Assembly (NCBI RefSeq): GCF_000621705.1
Contig: NZ_JHXO01000007.1
Span: forward strand, 310,001 to 374,000
Reading direction: 5' to 3'
Origin: Prolixibacter bellariivorans ATCC BAA-1284
GTDB lineage: Bacteria > Bacteroidota > Bacteroidia > Bacteroidales > Prolixibacteraceae
DNA: 64,000 nt
Part shown: positions 3,423-9,439 of the stretch, in pieces
Numbering within the stretch: the stretch's first letter is position 1
Layout of the letters: every line of letters begins with the position of its first letter
Position numbers and translations under genes: made by a program
The notes under the pieces: generated by a model
What the model was told of the DNA's origin: nothing
The model's input: only the letters and a program-made list of their open reading frames with translations
Databases searched by the model: none

Positions 3423-4340
3423 CTACTTTATATCTTTCAAATTAAAAGGCGTTTCCTGATAAACGTAATAGTTCAGCCAATTCGAAAACAACAGATTAGA
3501 ATGAGCACGCCACAGCATTAGCGGCTTTTGAGAACTATCGTTATTGGGATAGTAATTTCTGGGAACTTCAATGGGCAAGTTTTTCGCTACATCACGTTTG
3601 TATTCTGAATCGAGATTAATACGTGCGTATTCAGAGTGACCGGTAACAAAAATTTGCTTTCCTTTTCGTGCCATTACCATGTACACACCAGCTTCTGCCG
3701 AAGAAGAAACAATTTTCAGTTCAGGAACTTTTTCGATGTCCTCCCTGCGTGTTTCGGTATGTCGTGAATGCGGGACATAAAATATGTCGTCAAAACCTCT
3801 GAATATCGGCAATTTATTATCGGTAACCGAATGCTCAAATACACCGAACATTTTCTTGTCCAATGGATGTTTCGGCACACCGTAAAAATGATAAAGTCCT
3901 GCCTGAGCTCCCCAGCATATGAACAAGGTAGAGGTCACGTGATGAACCGACCAATCCATTACAGCCTTTAATTCATTCCAATAATCAACGTCTTCAAAGG
4001 GCAGTAATTCCACCGGCGCTCCAGTGACTATCATTCCGTCATAGTTGTTCTGTGAAACCGAATCAAATCGCTGATAAAATGCCTGCATGTGTTCAGCCGG
4101 TGTATGCTTGGGGGTATGCCCGCCAAGTTGCAGCAAGTCGATCTCTACCTGGAGAGGCGTATTCGACAACAGCCGGATTAAATCCGTCTCCGTGTTCACC
4201 TTCAGCGGCATCAGATTCACAATGGCAATTCTCAGCGGCCTGATATCCTGGTGCGCAGCCCTGCTCTTGCTCATGACAAAGATGTTCTCTTTCTTGAGCA
4301 TTTTAATGGCAGGCAGTTTATCGGGCAAGTTTAAAGGCAT
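3423..4340 (-). CDS. metA: Homoserine O-acyltransferase (MetA family), probably acetyl-CoA-specific
   Basis: A 305-residue cytoplasmic enzyme for the first committed step of methionine synthesis, acylation of homoserine. Catalytic Cys142 lies in FICWGAQAG; His235 and Glu237 lie in GHSEY, the same positions as in studied MetA enzymes. Residue 111 is Glu ([10 protein letters not shown]). In characterised homologues Gly111 goes with succinyl-CoA and Glu111 with acetyl-CoA, so despite the usual 'succinyltransferase' label this is probably an acetyltransferase (inference). That fits the upstream gene, an O-acetylhomoserine sulfhydrylase. It is the last gene of the aspartate kinase - metY - metA operon. 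Confidence 0.93.
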
Positions 4341-4421: not shown

Positions 4422-5735
<1,314 letters not shown>

Positions 5736-5795: not shown

Positions 5796-7184
5796 TTATA
5801 CCTGAATAGATTTTGGTTCAAAAAACTCCTGGTGAACTGCTCTTACAGCTTTGGAACGGTCGTCGCAGTTGACGAGAAAATAGCTGACGACCGGTGACGC
5901 CCCCGAACAACTCATCACTACGTTAATTCCTTTGCTCGCCATCGATGAAAAAATCCGCGCAGCGATTCCGTAGTTGTCGATCAAACCATCGCCTACTGCC
6001 GCGATGACCGAAATTTTTTCGATCACCAACAACTCGCTGACAGCGGGTAGCTCTTCGGCACTGACCACCGCATAAGCGTTGCGCAAATCCTTTTTGGCTA
6101 AAAGTATGTTGATGGAAATTTGAGATGTAATAACAGAGCTAATATTGATTCCGGCCAAATGCAGTGCTGTTGTTACACGGGCCAGAATTCCTGGTTTTAG
6201 CCCTACACCGGGACCTTTCAGTTTCAGCACACCAAAATCATCGCTGTAGGTAACACTCTTCACCACACCCTCGCGAATGGTTTGGTCAGAATTCACGATG
6301 GATAGCGGCTTTTCTACATCCATGTCGCCATAAATGTTGAATACCCGAATGGGGATGTGTGGGTCGACCAATGGTTCAACCGTGCGAGGGTGCAGTATTT
6401 TTGCACCAAAATAGGCCAACTCTGCTGCTTCTGCATATGCCAGTCGCTCAATCCGTACGGGCCCATCAACAAGCTTCGGATCGGCGCTTAAAAAGCCATC
6501 TACATCTTTCCAGATATCCAACGACGAGGCTCCGATGCAACGGGCAAGAGCTGCAGCAGAATAATCACTTCCTCCGCGGCCCAGTAAGGTTACTTTTCCC
6601 TCATCTGATACTCCGTAAAACCCCGGAACAACATAAATTCGATTCCCCGAAAGAGCTTCTCTCACCGGAGTTGTTGCTTTCTGAAAATCAATGGATGCAC
6701 TACCGAATTCGCCATCGGTAACCAACCCAATTTCCTCGGGTGAGGCATATTGAGCATCCAAACCGTACCCCTCGAGCACGCCTTGCAGGAATACGGCCGA
6801 CAAACGCTCCCCAAATGCCAGGATTAAATCCTCTAATGCGGGGGATGCATCACCTGTCAGGGCGATTCCCTGCAGGTAATTCTCCAATTCATCAAGCAGG
6901 TTCCGGATGTCGGTTTCTACCCGCTCCAGCAATTCGCTTGCGATTGGATGCTCTTCCAGCGCCTCTTTCTTCAGTTGATAAAGATAACGGCCTACTTCAC
7001 CGGCCACTTTTTCATTTTGGCGGGCTTTCTCCAGCGATTCAATCAGGTAGTTGGTAACTCCATAGAAGGCGGACACAACAACCACAAGAGGTTCATCATA
7101 GTTCTTGATAACGTTTACCACGCGGCGCACGTCACTCTTGCTTTTTAGGTTCGAGCCGCCGAATTTTACGACAATCTTCGGCAT
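5796..7184 (-). CDS. lysC: Aspartate kinase, monofunctional, with C-terminal ACT domains
   Basis: A 462-residue aspartokinase catalysing ATP-dependent phosphorylation of aspartate, the entry to the Lys/Thr/Met pathways. The N-terminal VKFGGSNLKS is the nucleotide-binding motif (a variant of KFGGTS). A kinase domain runs to about residue 290. Two ACT domains follow (from about GVLKLKGPGVGLKPG and VIEKISVIAAVGDG), which normally bind inhibitory amino acids. No homoserine dehydrogenase domain is fused. It is the first enzyme gene of the methionine operon and starts about 100 bases after the Met-rich leader peptide, so this isozyme is probably committed to methionine supply (inference). Confidence 0.93.
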   Translation of the reverse strand: MPKIVVKFGGSNLKSKSDVRRVVNVIKNYDEPLVVVVSAFYGVTNYLIESLEKARQNEKVAGEVGRYLYQLKKEALEEHPIASELLERVETDIRNLLDELENYLQGIALTGDASPALEDLILAFGERLSAVFLQGVLEGYGLDAQYASPEEIGLVTDGEFGSASIDFQKATTPVREALSGNRIYVVPGFYGVSDEGKVTLLGRGGSDYSAAALARCIGASSLDIWKDVDGFLSADPKLVDGPVRIERLAYAEAAELAYFGAKILHPRTVEPLVDPHIPIRVFNIYGDMDVEKPLSIVNSDQTIREGVVKSVTYSDDFGVLKLKGPGVGLKPGILARVTTALHLAGINISSVITSQISINILLAKKDLRNAYAVVSAEELPAVSELLVIEKISVIAAVGDGLIDNYGIAARIFSSMASKGINVVMSCSGASPVVSYFLVNCDDRSKAVRAVHQEFFEPKSIQV

Positions 7185-7233
7185 AATAATCCCTAATAAG
7201 ATGTAAGAAAATAAGTTGTTTCAGATGATGGGT

Positions 7234-7248
7234 GGTCCGGAACGGACC
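7234..7248 (-). other. GC-rich hairpin just upstream of aspartate kinase
   Basis: A perfect 6-bp stem (GGTCCG/CGGACC) around a 3-base loop, 50 bases upstream of the aspartate kinase start and 38 bases after the leader-peptide stop. It lacks a clear T run, so it is not a simple terminator. It could alternate with structures formed within the leader-peptide region. Confidence 0.45.
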
Positions 7249-7285
7249 GGTCGGAAATGCCTCCAAGCACGGATATGCCTGAAGG

Positions 7286-7399
7286 CTATCGCATGGACAT
7301 AGTCATGGTGGGCATCATAGAAGAAGCAGTCATCAATCCCGAGGTGTAAATGGTTACCTCGGCAGTAAATTTTGGTGTAATGATTTGTTCTTTTTTCAT
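7286..7399 (-). CDS. Met/Thr-rich leader peptide of the methionine operon
   Basis: A 37-codon frame starts with an ATG 13 bases downstream of the S-box aptamer and ends at TAG, 101 bases before the aspartate kinase start. It contains 7 Met (including the start) and 7 Thr. Six Met fall in the last 15 residues, LMTASSMMPTMTMSMR. A 7-bp hairpin (7339-7362) lies within the frame and a GC-rich hairpin (7234-7248) after it. The clustering of Met codons next to the stop is what a translation-coupled attenuator sensing charged tRNA-Met would look like. Expression and function are inferred; the alternative is a chance frame in a structured leader. Confidence 0.6.
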   Translation of the reverse strand: MKKEQIITPKFTAEVTIYTSGLMTASSMMPTMTMSMR

Positions 7400-7411
7400 T
7401 GTTTTGCTGTT

Positions 7412-7495
7412 TATTATGATTAGGTTTTGGCACCATGGATGTTTCCGGTTGCCAGAGCTTCACAGAGCCTAATCTCTCCACTCTTCTTCATAATA
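7412..7495 (-). ncRNA. S-box (SAM-I) riboswitch controlling the aspartate kinase - metY - metA operon
   Basis: On the minus strand the segment carries the SAM-I core in order: AGAGTGGAGAG, then TGTGAAGCTCTGGCAACC, then GGTGCCAAAACC. These correspond to the conserved GAGGGA, ATGA-rCC-GGCAACC and GGTGC-AAttCC blocks. It is closed by a perfect 8-bp P1 helix, TATTATGA (7495-7488) with TCATAATA (7419-7412). The aptamer is compact because P3 is short. S-box RNAs bind S-adenosylmethionine and repress methionine genes. No canonical terminator follows, so the expression platform may be translational or act through the adjacent leader peptide (inference). Confidence 0.85.
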
Positions 7496-7536
7496 TCAAA
7501 CATCTTCTTTGCCCAAGAATATGCATGATGTGTTGA

Positions 7537-7568
7537 CAAACATATGGACATGATTTCAAAAATGCAAA
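7537..7568 (-). promoter_or_regulatory. Bacteroidota-type promoter of the methionine operon
   Basis: On the minus strand TTTG (7568-7565), a 20-base spacer and TATGTTTG (7544-7537) match the -33 TTTG and -7 TAnnTTTG elements exactly. Transcription would begin about 35 bases before the S-box aptamer. Confidence 0.75.
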
Positions 7569-7816: not shown

Positions 7817-9439
7817 ATGAAACTTAAAAAAGGATTCTTTATGCTGGTTATTCTAGCTGCAGTTGTTGGATGCTCAAACAAGCAATACACGCGGCCTGAA
7901 GTGAAAATTGTTCCGGAACCGGCCAAAGTTGTGAACACAGATGGCGTGTTTGTCCTGAATAAAAAAACACCCGTTCTGGTAAACGAAGATAACCCGGAAC
8001 TGAAACAAATTGCTGGTTTTCTTACGGCTCACTTGTCTGATTTTTATGGTCTGAATGCTTCTGTCGATGTAGCTGACTCACCACAAAAAAAGGCCATATT
8101 TATCGGTCTCGACAAAAGTCTCAACCTTGGGAAAGAAGCTTACAATCTATCTGTAACGCCAAAACAAATTGTACTGAAAGCCTCTGCACCAAATGGTTTG
8201 TTTTACGGTGTTCAAACCTTGATTCAGCTACTGCCCCCGTCTCGTCAACAACTATCGGAAGCTGTATTTCCCGCCGTTGAAATCGAAGATACTCCCCGAT
8301 TCGGCTGGCGTGGTATGCACCTCGACGTGGGACGTCATTTTATGCCGGTCGATTTCGTAAAAAAGTACATCGATTACATTGCCATGAACAAAATGAACGT
8401 GTTCCATTGGCACCTCACCGAGGATCAGGGTTGGCGTATTGAAATCAAGAAATACCCAAAACTGACCGAAATAGGTTCTAAAAGGAAAGAGACAATCATA
8501 GGGCATGCTCATGAGTCAAAAGAATACGATGGAAAACCTTACGGTGGATTTTATACGCAGGACGAGATCAAAGATGTTGTTGCATACGCCAAAGCCCGTT
8601 ATGTAACAGTCGTTCCGGAAATCGAACTTCCCGGACATGCTTTAGCAGCGTTGGCATCATATCCCGAATTGGGATGTACCGGTGGTCCTTATGAAGTAGC
8701 AACAACTTGGGGCGTTTTCGACGATGTTTATTGTGCGGGTAAAGAAGAAACGTTCCAATTCCTTGAAGATGTTATTTCCGAGGTGATGCCGCTGTTTCCG
8801 GGCGAATATTTTCACATTGGAGGCGATGAATGTCCGAAAACCCAGTGGGAAAAATGCCCTTACTGCCAGGCCCGCATGAAAAAAGAAGGATTGAAAAACG
8901 AACATGAACTACAAAGTTATTTCGTGCAACGGATCGAAAAATTCCTGAATGCACATGGCAAGAAAATGATTGGCTGGGACGAAATTCTAGAAGGTGGATT
9001 GGCTCCTAATGCGACTGTCATGTCATGGCGCGGCGAAGAAGGCGGTATCGCGGCTGCACAGGCACATCACGATGCTGTGATGACACCAGGCAATTATTGT
9101 TATTTCGACCATTACCAAGCCGATCCCAAGACACAACCTCTGGCGATAGGCGGGTTTACTCCGCTCAAAGAGGTTTACGGATACGAACCGATTCCCAAAG
9201 AGTTGTCTGCAGAAGAGGGGAAATATATTCTGGGCGCTCAGGGAAATGTTTGGACCGAATACATGGCAACTCCCGAACGTGTCGAATACATGGTATTCCC
9301 GCGCATTGCGGCATTAGCTGAGGTAGTTTGGTCGCCCAAGGGAAGCCGCAATTACGACGATTTTATGAATCGGATGCAGGATGAAGTGAAACGCTACGAT
9401 GCCTATGGTATCAATTACTGTAAAGTGGAATTTCAATAG
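7817..9439 (+). CDS. Beta-N-acetylhexosaminidase, glycoside hydrolase family 20, lipoprotein
   Basis: A 540-residue exported enzyme that removes terminal N-acetylglucosamine/galactosamine from glycans. It has a lipoprotein signal ending at residue ~19 (AAVVGC) and a GH20b N-terminal domain at about 30-155. The GH20 TIM barrel begins at RFGWRGMHLDVGRHF and contains MNVFHWHLTEDQGWR. The catalytic Asp-Glu pair is in FHIGGDECPK. Length and domain order are normal. It is monocistronic, with a terminator 21 bases downstream. Likely substrates are chitin oligomers, glycoproteins or peptidoglycan fragments; which one cannot be told. Confidence 0.95.
   Translation: MKLKKGFFMLVILAAVVGCSNKQYTRPEVKIVPEPAKVVNTDGVFVLNKKTPVLVNEDNPELKQIAGFLTAHLSDFYGLNASVDVADSPQKKAIFIGLDKSLNLGKEAYNLSVTPKQIVLKASAPNGLFYGVQTLIQLLPPSRQQLSEAVFPAVEIEDTPRFGWRGMHLDVGRHFMPVDFVKKYIDYIAMNKMNVFHWHLTEDQGWRIEIKKYPKLTEIGSKRKETIIGHAHESKEYDGKPYGGFYTQDEIKDVVAYAKARYVTVVPEIELPGHALAALASYPELGCTGGPYEVATTWGVFDDVYCAGKEETFQFLEDVISEVMPLFPGEYFHIGGDECPKTQWEKCPYCQARMKKEGLKNEHELQSYFVQRIEKFLNAHGKKMIGWDEILEGGLAPNATVMSWRGEEGGIAAAQAHHDAVMTPGNYCYFDHYQADPKTQPLAIGGFTPLKEVYGYEPIPKELSAEEGKYILGAQGNVWTEYMATPERVEYMVFPRIAALAEVVWSPKGSRNYDDFMNRMQDEVKRYDAYGINYCKVEFQ

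Follow-up and report, generated by a model that had tools for sequence, protein, structure and literature searches.

A predicted two-layer leader, a SAM-I riboswitch followed by a methionine-rich uORF, upstream of the ask-metY-metA operon in Prolixibacter and related Bacteroidales

The window, by which we mean the whole 64 kb stretch of Prolixibacter bellariivorans DNA that was analysed, carries on its minus strand a promoter, a SAM-I (S-box) aptamer, an upstream ORF (uORF) of 37 codons with 7 Met, hairpins and the genes ask-metY-metA, in that order. The first gene of the operon is the aspartate kinase ask (5796-7184; TIGR00657, 341.9 bits against a cutoff of 208.7), followed by the O-acetylhomoserine sulfhydrylase metY (4422-5714; TIGR01326, 687.3 bits, cutoff 495.1) and the homoserine O-acetyltransferase metA (3423-4340; NF047918, 489.8 bits, cutoff 460.5). 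The original prediction had placed a promoter of the form TTTG-N20-TATGTTTG at the head of this leader and such a Bacteroidota-type promoter is present at 7568-7537 of the minus strand. It is the sole match to TTTG-N20-TAnnTTTG in the window where 0.49 would be expected by chance, so that the match by itself is weak and it is the position that is decisive. A divergent gene on the plus strand (7817-9439), with a weak NCBIfam match to beta-N-acetylglucosaminidase (36.1 bits, cutoff 1000), starts 249 bases from the promoter.

The uORF (7399-7286, minus strand) begins with an ATG 11 nt after the P1 helix of the aptamer and ends with a TAG at 7288-7286. As in leader-peptide attenuators the codons for the end product lie near the end of the ORF, six of the seven Met falling within the final 15 (7333-7289), and the frame is in this respect exactly as originally described. 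Folding predicts three hairpins on the same strand, namely hairpin A within the uORF (7339-7362; CCGAGGU / ACCUCGG), hairpin B (7259-7286), which starts on the final nucleotide of the uORF stop codon and is also found in an alignment of 24 sequences, and hairpin C (7234-7248; GGUCCG-UUC-CGGACC), which lies outside the consensus structure of that alignment. Hairpins B and C, located between the uORF stop and ask, account for the two hairpins that had been noted ahead of the aspartate kinase gene. The fold of 7186-7330 has a z of -3.4 and none of 200 shuffled sequences was equally stable. A simple scan of the window leader found no terminator-like site or intrinsic terminator, in agreement with the earlier statement that no standard S-box terminator follows.

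The aptamer itself (7411-7496, minus strand) scores 65.6 bits with the RF00162 covariance model, above the curated cutoff of 44.4 bits. The S-box core of the original prediction therefore stands, and its description of P1 as perfect was slightly generous, since in the Rfam register the outermost position is an A.A mismatch and the helix is made up of eight standard pairs. In the alignment the P4 helix of the RF00162 consensus is missing, and the element is a P4-less variant of the family with its core kept, which is predicted to bind SAM. The P4 hairpin is missing from the SAM-I elements of Prolixibacter and of genus g11 (7411-7496 (-) in the window; L012, L015, L024, L025). At the gathering cutoff an Rfam scan of the window returned only SAM-I and a tRNA gene, with no T-box and no other element, and a search of the source genome gave a single SAM-I match. 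More widely, 25 of 61 relatives had a SAM-I match, as did 64 of 140 genomes of the family, 115 of 393 of the order and 314 of 395 of the phylum. SAM-II leaders were also considered; RF00521 exceeded its cutoff in none of 198 own-order genomes, with 2 weak matches.

We compared the leaders of 366 SAM-I loci, of which 38 without a located P1 (including L324, with a 10-base stretch) and 34 duplicates were left out, so that P1 was located by script in 294 different leaders forming 230 clusters. Locus numbers decided the group, each cluster being counted with its lowest-numbered member. In the own-order group, in which the family of the source genome is oversampled, an ATG lies 9-15 nt after P1 in 86 of 127 clusters, compared with a mean of 19.1 and a maximum of 35 in other 7-nt windows. 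The named group, taken from the 101 named loci of a pattern scan and dependent in its composition on the search pattern, has the ATG in 41 of 60 clusters (mean 7.5 in other windows), and the phylum group, made up of the 30 best-scoring loci of the phylum scan and 43 chosen places, has it in 5 of 43 clusters (mean 3.9). The uORF is therefore a feature of the order of the source genome and of some named relatives and not one of the sampled phylum group. Tails in which the final 12 codons include at least two Met were present in 57/127 own-order, 26/60 named and 0/43 phylum-group clusters.

The methionine codons are concentrated in the frame and at the end of these ORFs. In 79 own-order uORF clusters the last 12 codons contain 168 in-frame Met as against 20.3 in shuffled sequences (maximum 36 in 200 shuffle sets). 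Among all 131 uORF clusters interior ATGs fall in frames 0, 1 and 2 in the ratio 267:36:12, or 245:16:7 for the last 12 codons only, and the remaining short ORFs of these leaders contain 45 Met among 2364 codons. Throughout the order, SAM-I leaders show such a Met tail on otherwise unrelated peptides. The start codons also resemble those of genes, with A at -3, -6 and -12 in 69, 60 and 75% of 110 uORF starts and in 64, 48 and 69% of 89 downstream gene starts, compared with 24, 42 and 27% of 458 other ATGs. The uORF starts thus have an A-rich context like that of real gene starts and unlike that of other ATGs, and in Flavobacterium johnsoniae these positions have been measured as determinants of initiation (PMC6847099). 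As a control we utilized TPP riboswitch leaders (30 of the 63 matches listed), where an ATG at +9 to +15 was found in 3 of 30 and the short ORFs have 1 Met in 211 codons.

An origin of the ORF by chance is ruled out by the frame bias, the counts of the Met tail and the conservation, described below, in genera where no S-box was detected. A related reading, in which the S-box acts alone and the ORF is a by-product of its expression platform, draws on the 79 of 230 clusters that have no ATG at the uORF place, because of which the uORF cannot be needed everywhere; yet it is scarcely credible given the same frame bias and conservation, the start context and the lack of such ORFs in the 30 TPP loci. 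Within the own-order group 35 of 127 clusters have no ATG at +7 to +18, which counts against a two-layer reading, as do the limitation of a tail with at least two Met to 57 of these 127 clusters, its absence from the 43 of the phylum group and the missing P4 of the aptamer. Translation of the uORF as a leader peptide is nevertheless predicted, and well supported, from these patterns.

The original prediction also held that a leader peptide would be indicated if the Met codons, frame and hairpins were conserved in related genomes and the remaining peptide was not, and this is the pattern observed. Among four Prolixibacter genomes there is variation at other codons of the uORF but none at the seven Met codons, and hairpin B of one of them (G003) carries two changes with its pairs kept. 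An ask orthologue with 64-71% identity is present in 20 genomes of genera g7 and g15, neither of which is among the genera with SAM-I matches in the family scan, and an Rfam rescan of six of their loci found no SAM-I. A uORF whose final 15 codons include two or more Met lies upstream of ask in all 20 loci. Taken together with the four Prolixibacter sequences, 24/24 have Met at -4 and -2 relative to the stop and 23/24 can be read from an in-frame ATG as 37 codons (35 in L415), while the rest of the peptide differs. The stretch AUAGCCUUC of the 24-sequence alignment covers the stop codon and hairpin B, the six outer pairs of which are kept in 24/24 and, being nearly invariant, give little or no covariation. 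A small hairpin inside the uORF, at a place like that of hairpin A, includes four pairs in which both partners vary in this alignment. It was further proposed originally that the operon senses both SAM and charged tRNA-Met, and this two-input idea is well supported at the level of sequence because the Met codons, frame and hairpin are conserved and the rest of the peptide is not.

In 19 of the 20 g7/g15 loci the TAnnTTTG starts 24-46 nt before the uORF, versus 145 nt in three of the four Prolixibacter, and this difference in length is taken up by the S-box. A tree of Ask (without L425 and L426) places one change, a gain or loss of the S-box, with a support of 69/31, long branches and an arbitrary root. 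The riboswitch and the Met-uORF are thus, as judged from these alignments, separable layers, with g7 and g15 keeping the uORF and its stop-abutting hairpin in leaders where no riboswitch was detected. The comparison as a whole establishes a SAM-I aptamer and, at a fixed distance from it, a short ORF that appears to evolve as a translated leader peptide, ending in Met codons and with a conserved hairpin at its stop.

The distance between the two is informative as to how they may be connected. The last nucleotide of P1 lies at -11 to -16 from the ATG of a uORF or gene in 106 of 124 leaders, and in 14 clusters a structural gene itself starts at the uORF place, 12 of these 11-14 nt after P1. From their N-terminal motifs and families we take these 14 to be seven metH, two metX and, for most of the others, DUF39-type genes. 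P1 ends at or near the -12/-13 positions, where adenines promote initiation (PMC6847099), with the same spacing as the metH or metX starts in some leaders. As structural genes start at the same spacing from P1, the simplest output of the S-box would be initiation on the next ORF, which is here the leader peptide. The two layers could instead be independent, the S-box acting on the leader fold or on transcription alone and the Met leader attenuating separately, with no gating of the uORF by P1. This is consistent with the conservation of the Met leader without an S-box in two genera and with tandem SAM-I/T-box(Met) leaders, in which each part is reported to have its own function (PMC9481103), but the fixed distance from P1 to the ATG, which directly controlled genes also have, speaks against it, as does a gap of only 11 nt in the window between P1 and the start of the uORF, with no terminator-like site; we regard it as unlikely.

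We therefore favour, as a probable reading, a two-layer leader in which SAM-I gates a Met-codon leader peptide and a stalled ribosome turns the operon on. With SAM bound P1 would be closed and the A-rich initiation region of the uORF hidden, leaving the leader unread and the operon off. Without SAM and with charged tRNA-Met plentiful the uORF would be read, the ribosome would reach the UAG and leave and the operon would again be off. Stalling at control codons is the classical readout of tRNA charging, and if SAM were absent and tRNA-Met uncharged, the ribosome would be held at the Met codons next to hairpin B and the operon would be on. The logic of such a leader would be NOT SAM AND Met-starved.

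The weakest part of this proposal is its last step, which is most likely transcriptional, by a Rho-dependent or non-canonical terminator, because the leader does not visibly lock the start region of ask. Our tests of the output step were mostly negative for pairing of the Met tail, for terminators and for release of the start region. In 106 of the 131 uORF clusters the Met tail paired with sequence further downstream little more strongly than a control stretch did (mean z -0.59 versus -0.28), and a terminator-like hairpin was top-ranked in 20 of the 106 leaders, about twice what chance ranks would give. A C-over-G bias 3' of the uORF, considered as a Rho-like hint, was set aside, being slight (0.188 versus 0.154 in 88 leaders) and equally strong within the uORF body. 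A general freeing of the gene start by a ribosome on the Met codons was likewise not supported (97 of 109 leaders used; mean 0.26 kcal/mol, p = 0.18, and p = 0.86 against a control mask), and in the window leader such a ribosome mask changes the opening cost of the gene start from 12.2 to 12.1 kcal/mol. Pairing of the 3' strand of P1 with the ask start, seen by eye, was dropped as G002 and G001 differ there.

A different use of the uORF would be as a coupling device, with ribosomes that end at its stop re-initiating at the gene and the riboswitch acting by translational coupling. There is a precedent in a riboswitch-controlled translated leader with termination-reinitiation (PMC11260477), but the distance from the uORF stop to the gene has a median of 108 nt (88 leaders), many of these stretches have stable folds (mean z -1.26 in 106 leaders) and the Met tail would be left unexplained, making this highly improbable. 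One exception to the general lack of start release is the leader L057, where the Met codons pair in one long helix with sequence just upstream of the ask ATG. Opening the gene start there costs 12.8 kcal/mol without and 4.6 kcal/mol with a modelled ribosome on these codons, and by this model the leader is a ready-made translational attenuator.

Riboswitches and leader-peptide attenuators are usually regarded as alternatives. Here both controls are found in one leader and the switch is probably placed to act via the uORF. The closest known system in terms of inputs is the SAM-I/T-box(Met) tandem, which likewise takes SAM and uncharged tRNA-Met in one leader with a predicted NOT A AND B logic; its second sensor is a T-box RNA, whereas here it would be a ribosome translating a uORF with the S-box at the uORF start, and the available parts of that report make no mention of uORFs or Bacteroidota (PMC9481103). 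In Mycobacterium tuberculosis B12 riboswitches control, or are combined with, uORF translation that modulates the gene, as proposed here, although the ligand differs and the accessible text names no control codons that would read a second input (PMC11260477). The amino-acid leaders of Rfam (His, Trp, Thr, Leu) similarly consist of a short ORF with end-product codons followed by hairpins, in contrast to the present case where the codons are Met, no canonical terminator was found and a riboswitch stands in front; the parts of that source available do not describe a SAM riboswitch with a Met leader peptide (PMC3766115). The metA leader of Sinorhizobium meliloti also has a SAM riboswitch beside an upstream start codon of a met gene leader, but there it is SAM-II, translation proceeds from a second in-frame AUG and no Met-codon leader peptide is described in the text available (PMC9373788). 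In Bacteroides thetaiotaomicron sORFs like leader peptides are mentioned in general terms (PMC7366714). The leader would thus share its inputs with SAM-I/T-box(Met) tandems and its type of sensor with leader-peptide attenuators, and a riboswitch-linked uORF has its precedent in the B12 systems. The combination of a SAM riboswitch with a Met-codon leader was not found in the open-access literature searched. Bacteroidota are described as a phylum without Shine-Dalgarno sequences (PMC6847099), and gating via a uORF would, if true, explain how an S-box can function without these and without a canonical terminator. The locus points to a Met-codon attenuator, a kind absent from the Rfam amino-acid leaders named in the source above (PMC3766115), and to a natural two-input gate that is testable by codon swaps.

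Other control codons occupy the same slot in some lineages. Behind SAM-I in L140, L169, L183, L192 and L164 the ORF at the uORF place ends in runs of Cys instead of Met, with CCCCCCC in L140 and CCCFCCC in L169 and L183. L140 and L183 come from one MAG and L164 from Pontibacter populi. A polycysteine attenuator has reportedly been the subject of a paper on mycobacteria. The poly-Cys variants behind SAM-I are comparable to the uORFC-8-2 leader motif, which also relies on control codons for a sulfur amino acid and presumed ribosome stalling, although that motif is from Alphaproteobacteria and lies upstream of cysS (PMC8632094). In genus g11 the ask leaders behind SAM-I have a Thr/Ile-rich uORF, with the stretches MITIYYITRTNTSML (L409), MITMTTITRTSISML (L410) and MITNNNTIRTNTSML (L230), and in all three a hairpin begins at the uORF stop codon.

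That the control codons are exchanged while their place and the architecture stay the same speaks for codon reading and against a fixed arrest peptide. A nascent peptide that binds SAM or Met and thereby arrests the ribosome, in place of an arrest at empty Met codons, might be suspected from the MxMR or MCMR tails that are frequent within a lineage; the tails however differ widely between lineages with only the Met codons in common, and their replacement in some lineages by Cys runs or Thr/Ile codons makes such a sensor very unlikely. Returning to the gated Met-codon leader, we see an even chance that it represents a hierarchical RNA-ribosome gate in wide use among Bacteroidales, in which the SAM riboswitch would license translation of a sensor uORF and not a gene or terminator and the Met codons of the uORF (Cys runs in some lineages and Thr/Ile in one ask lineage) would decide expression, the modules being separable with the uORF alone in some genera. 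Thr/Ile-rich short ORFs such as HITTTTTTTPAGV also precede other aspartate kinase genes, most of which have the length of bifunctional ones (L433, L439, L441, L446, L447), and this suggests that putative threonine attenuators occur in the same order.
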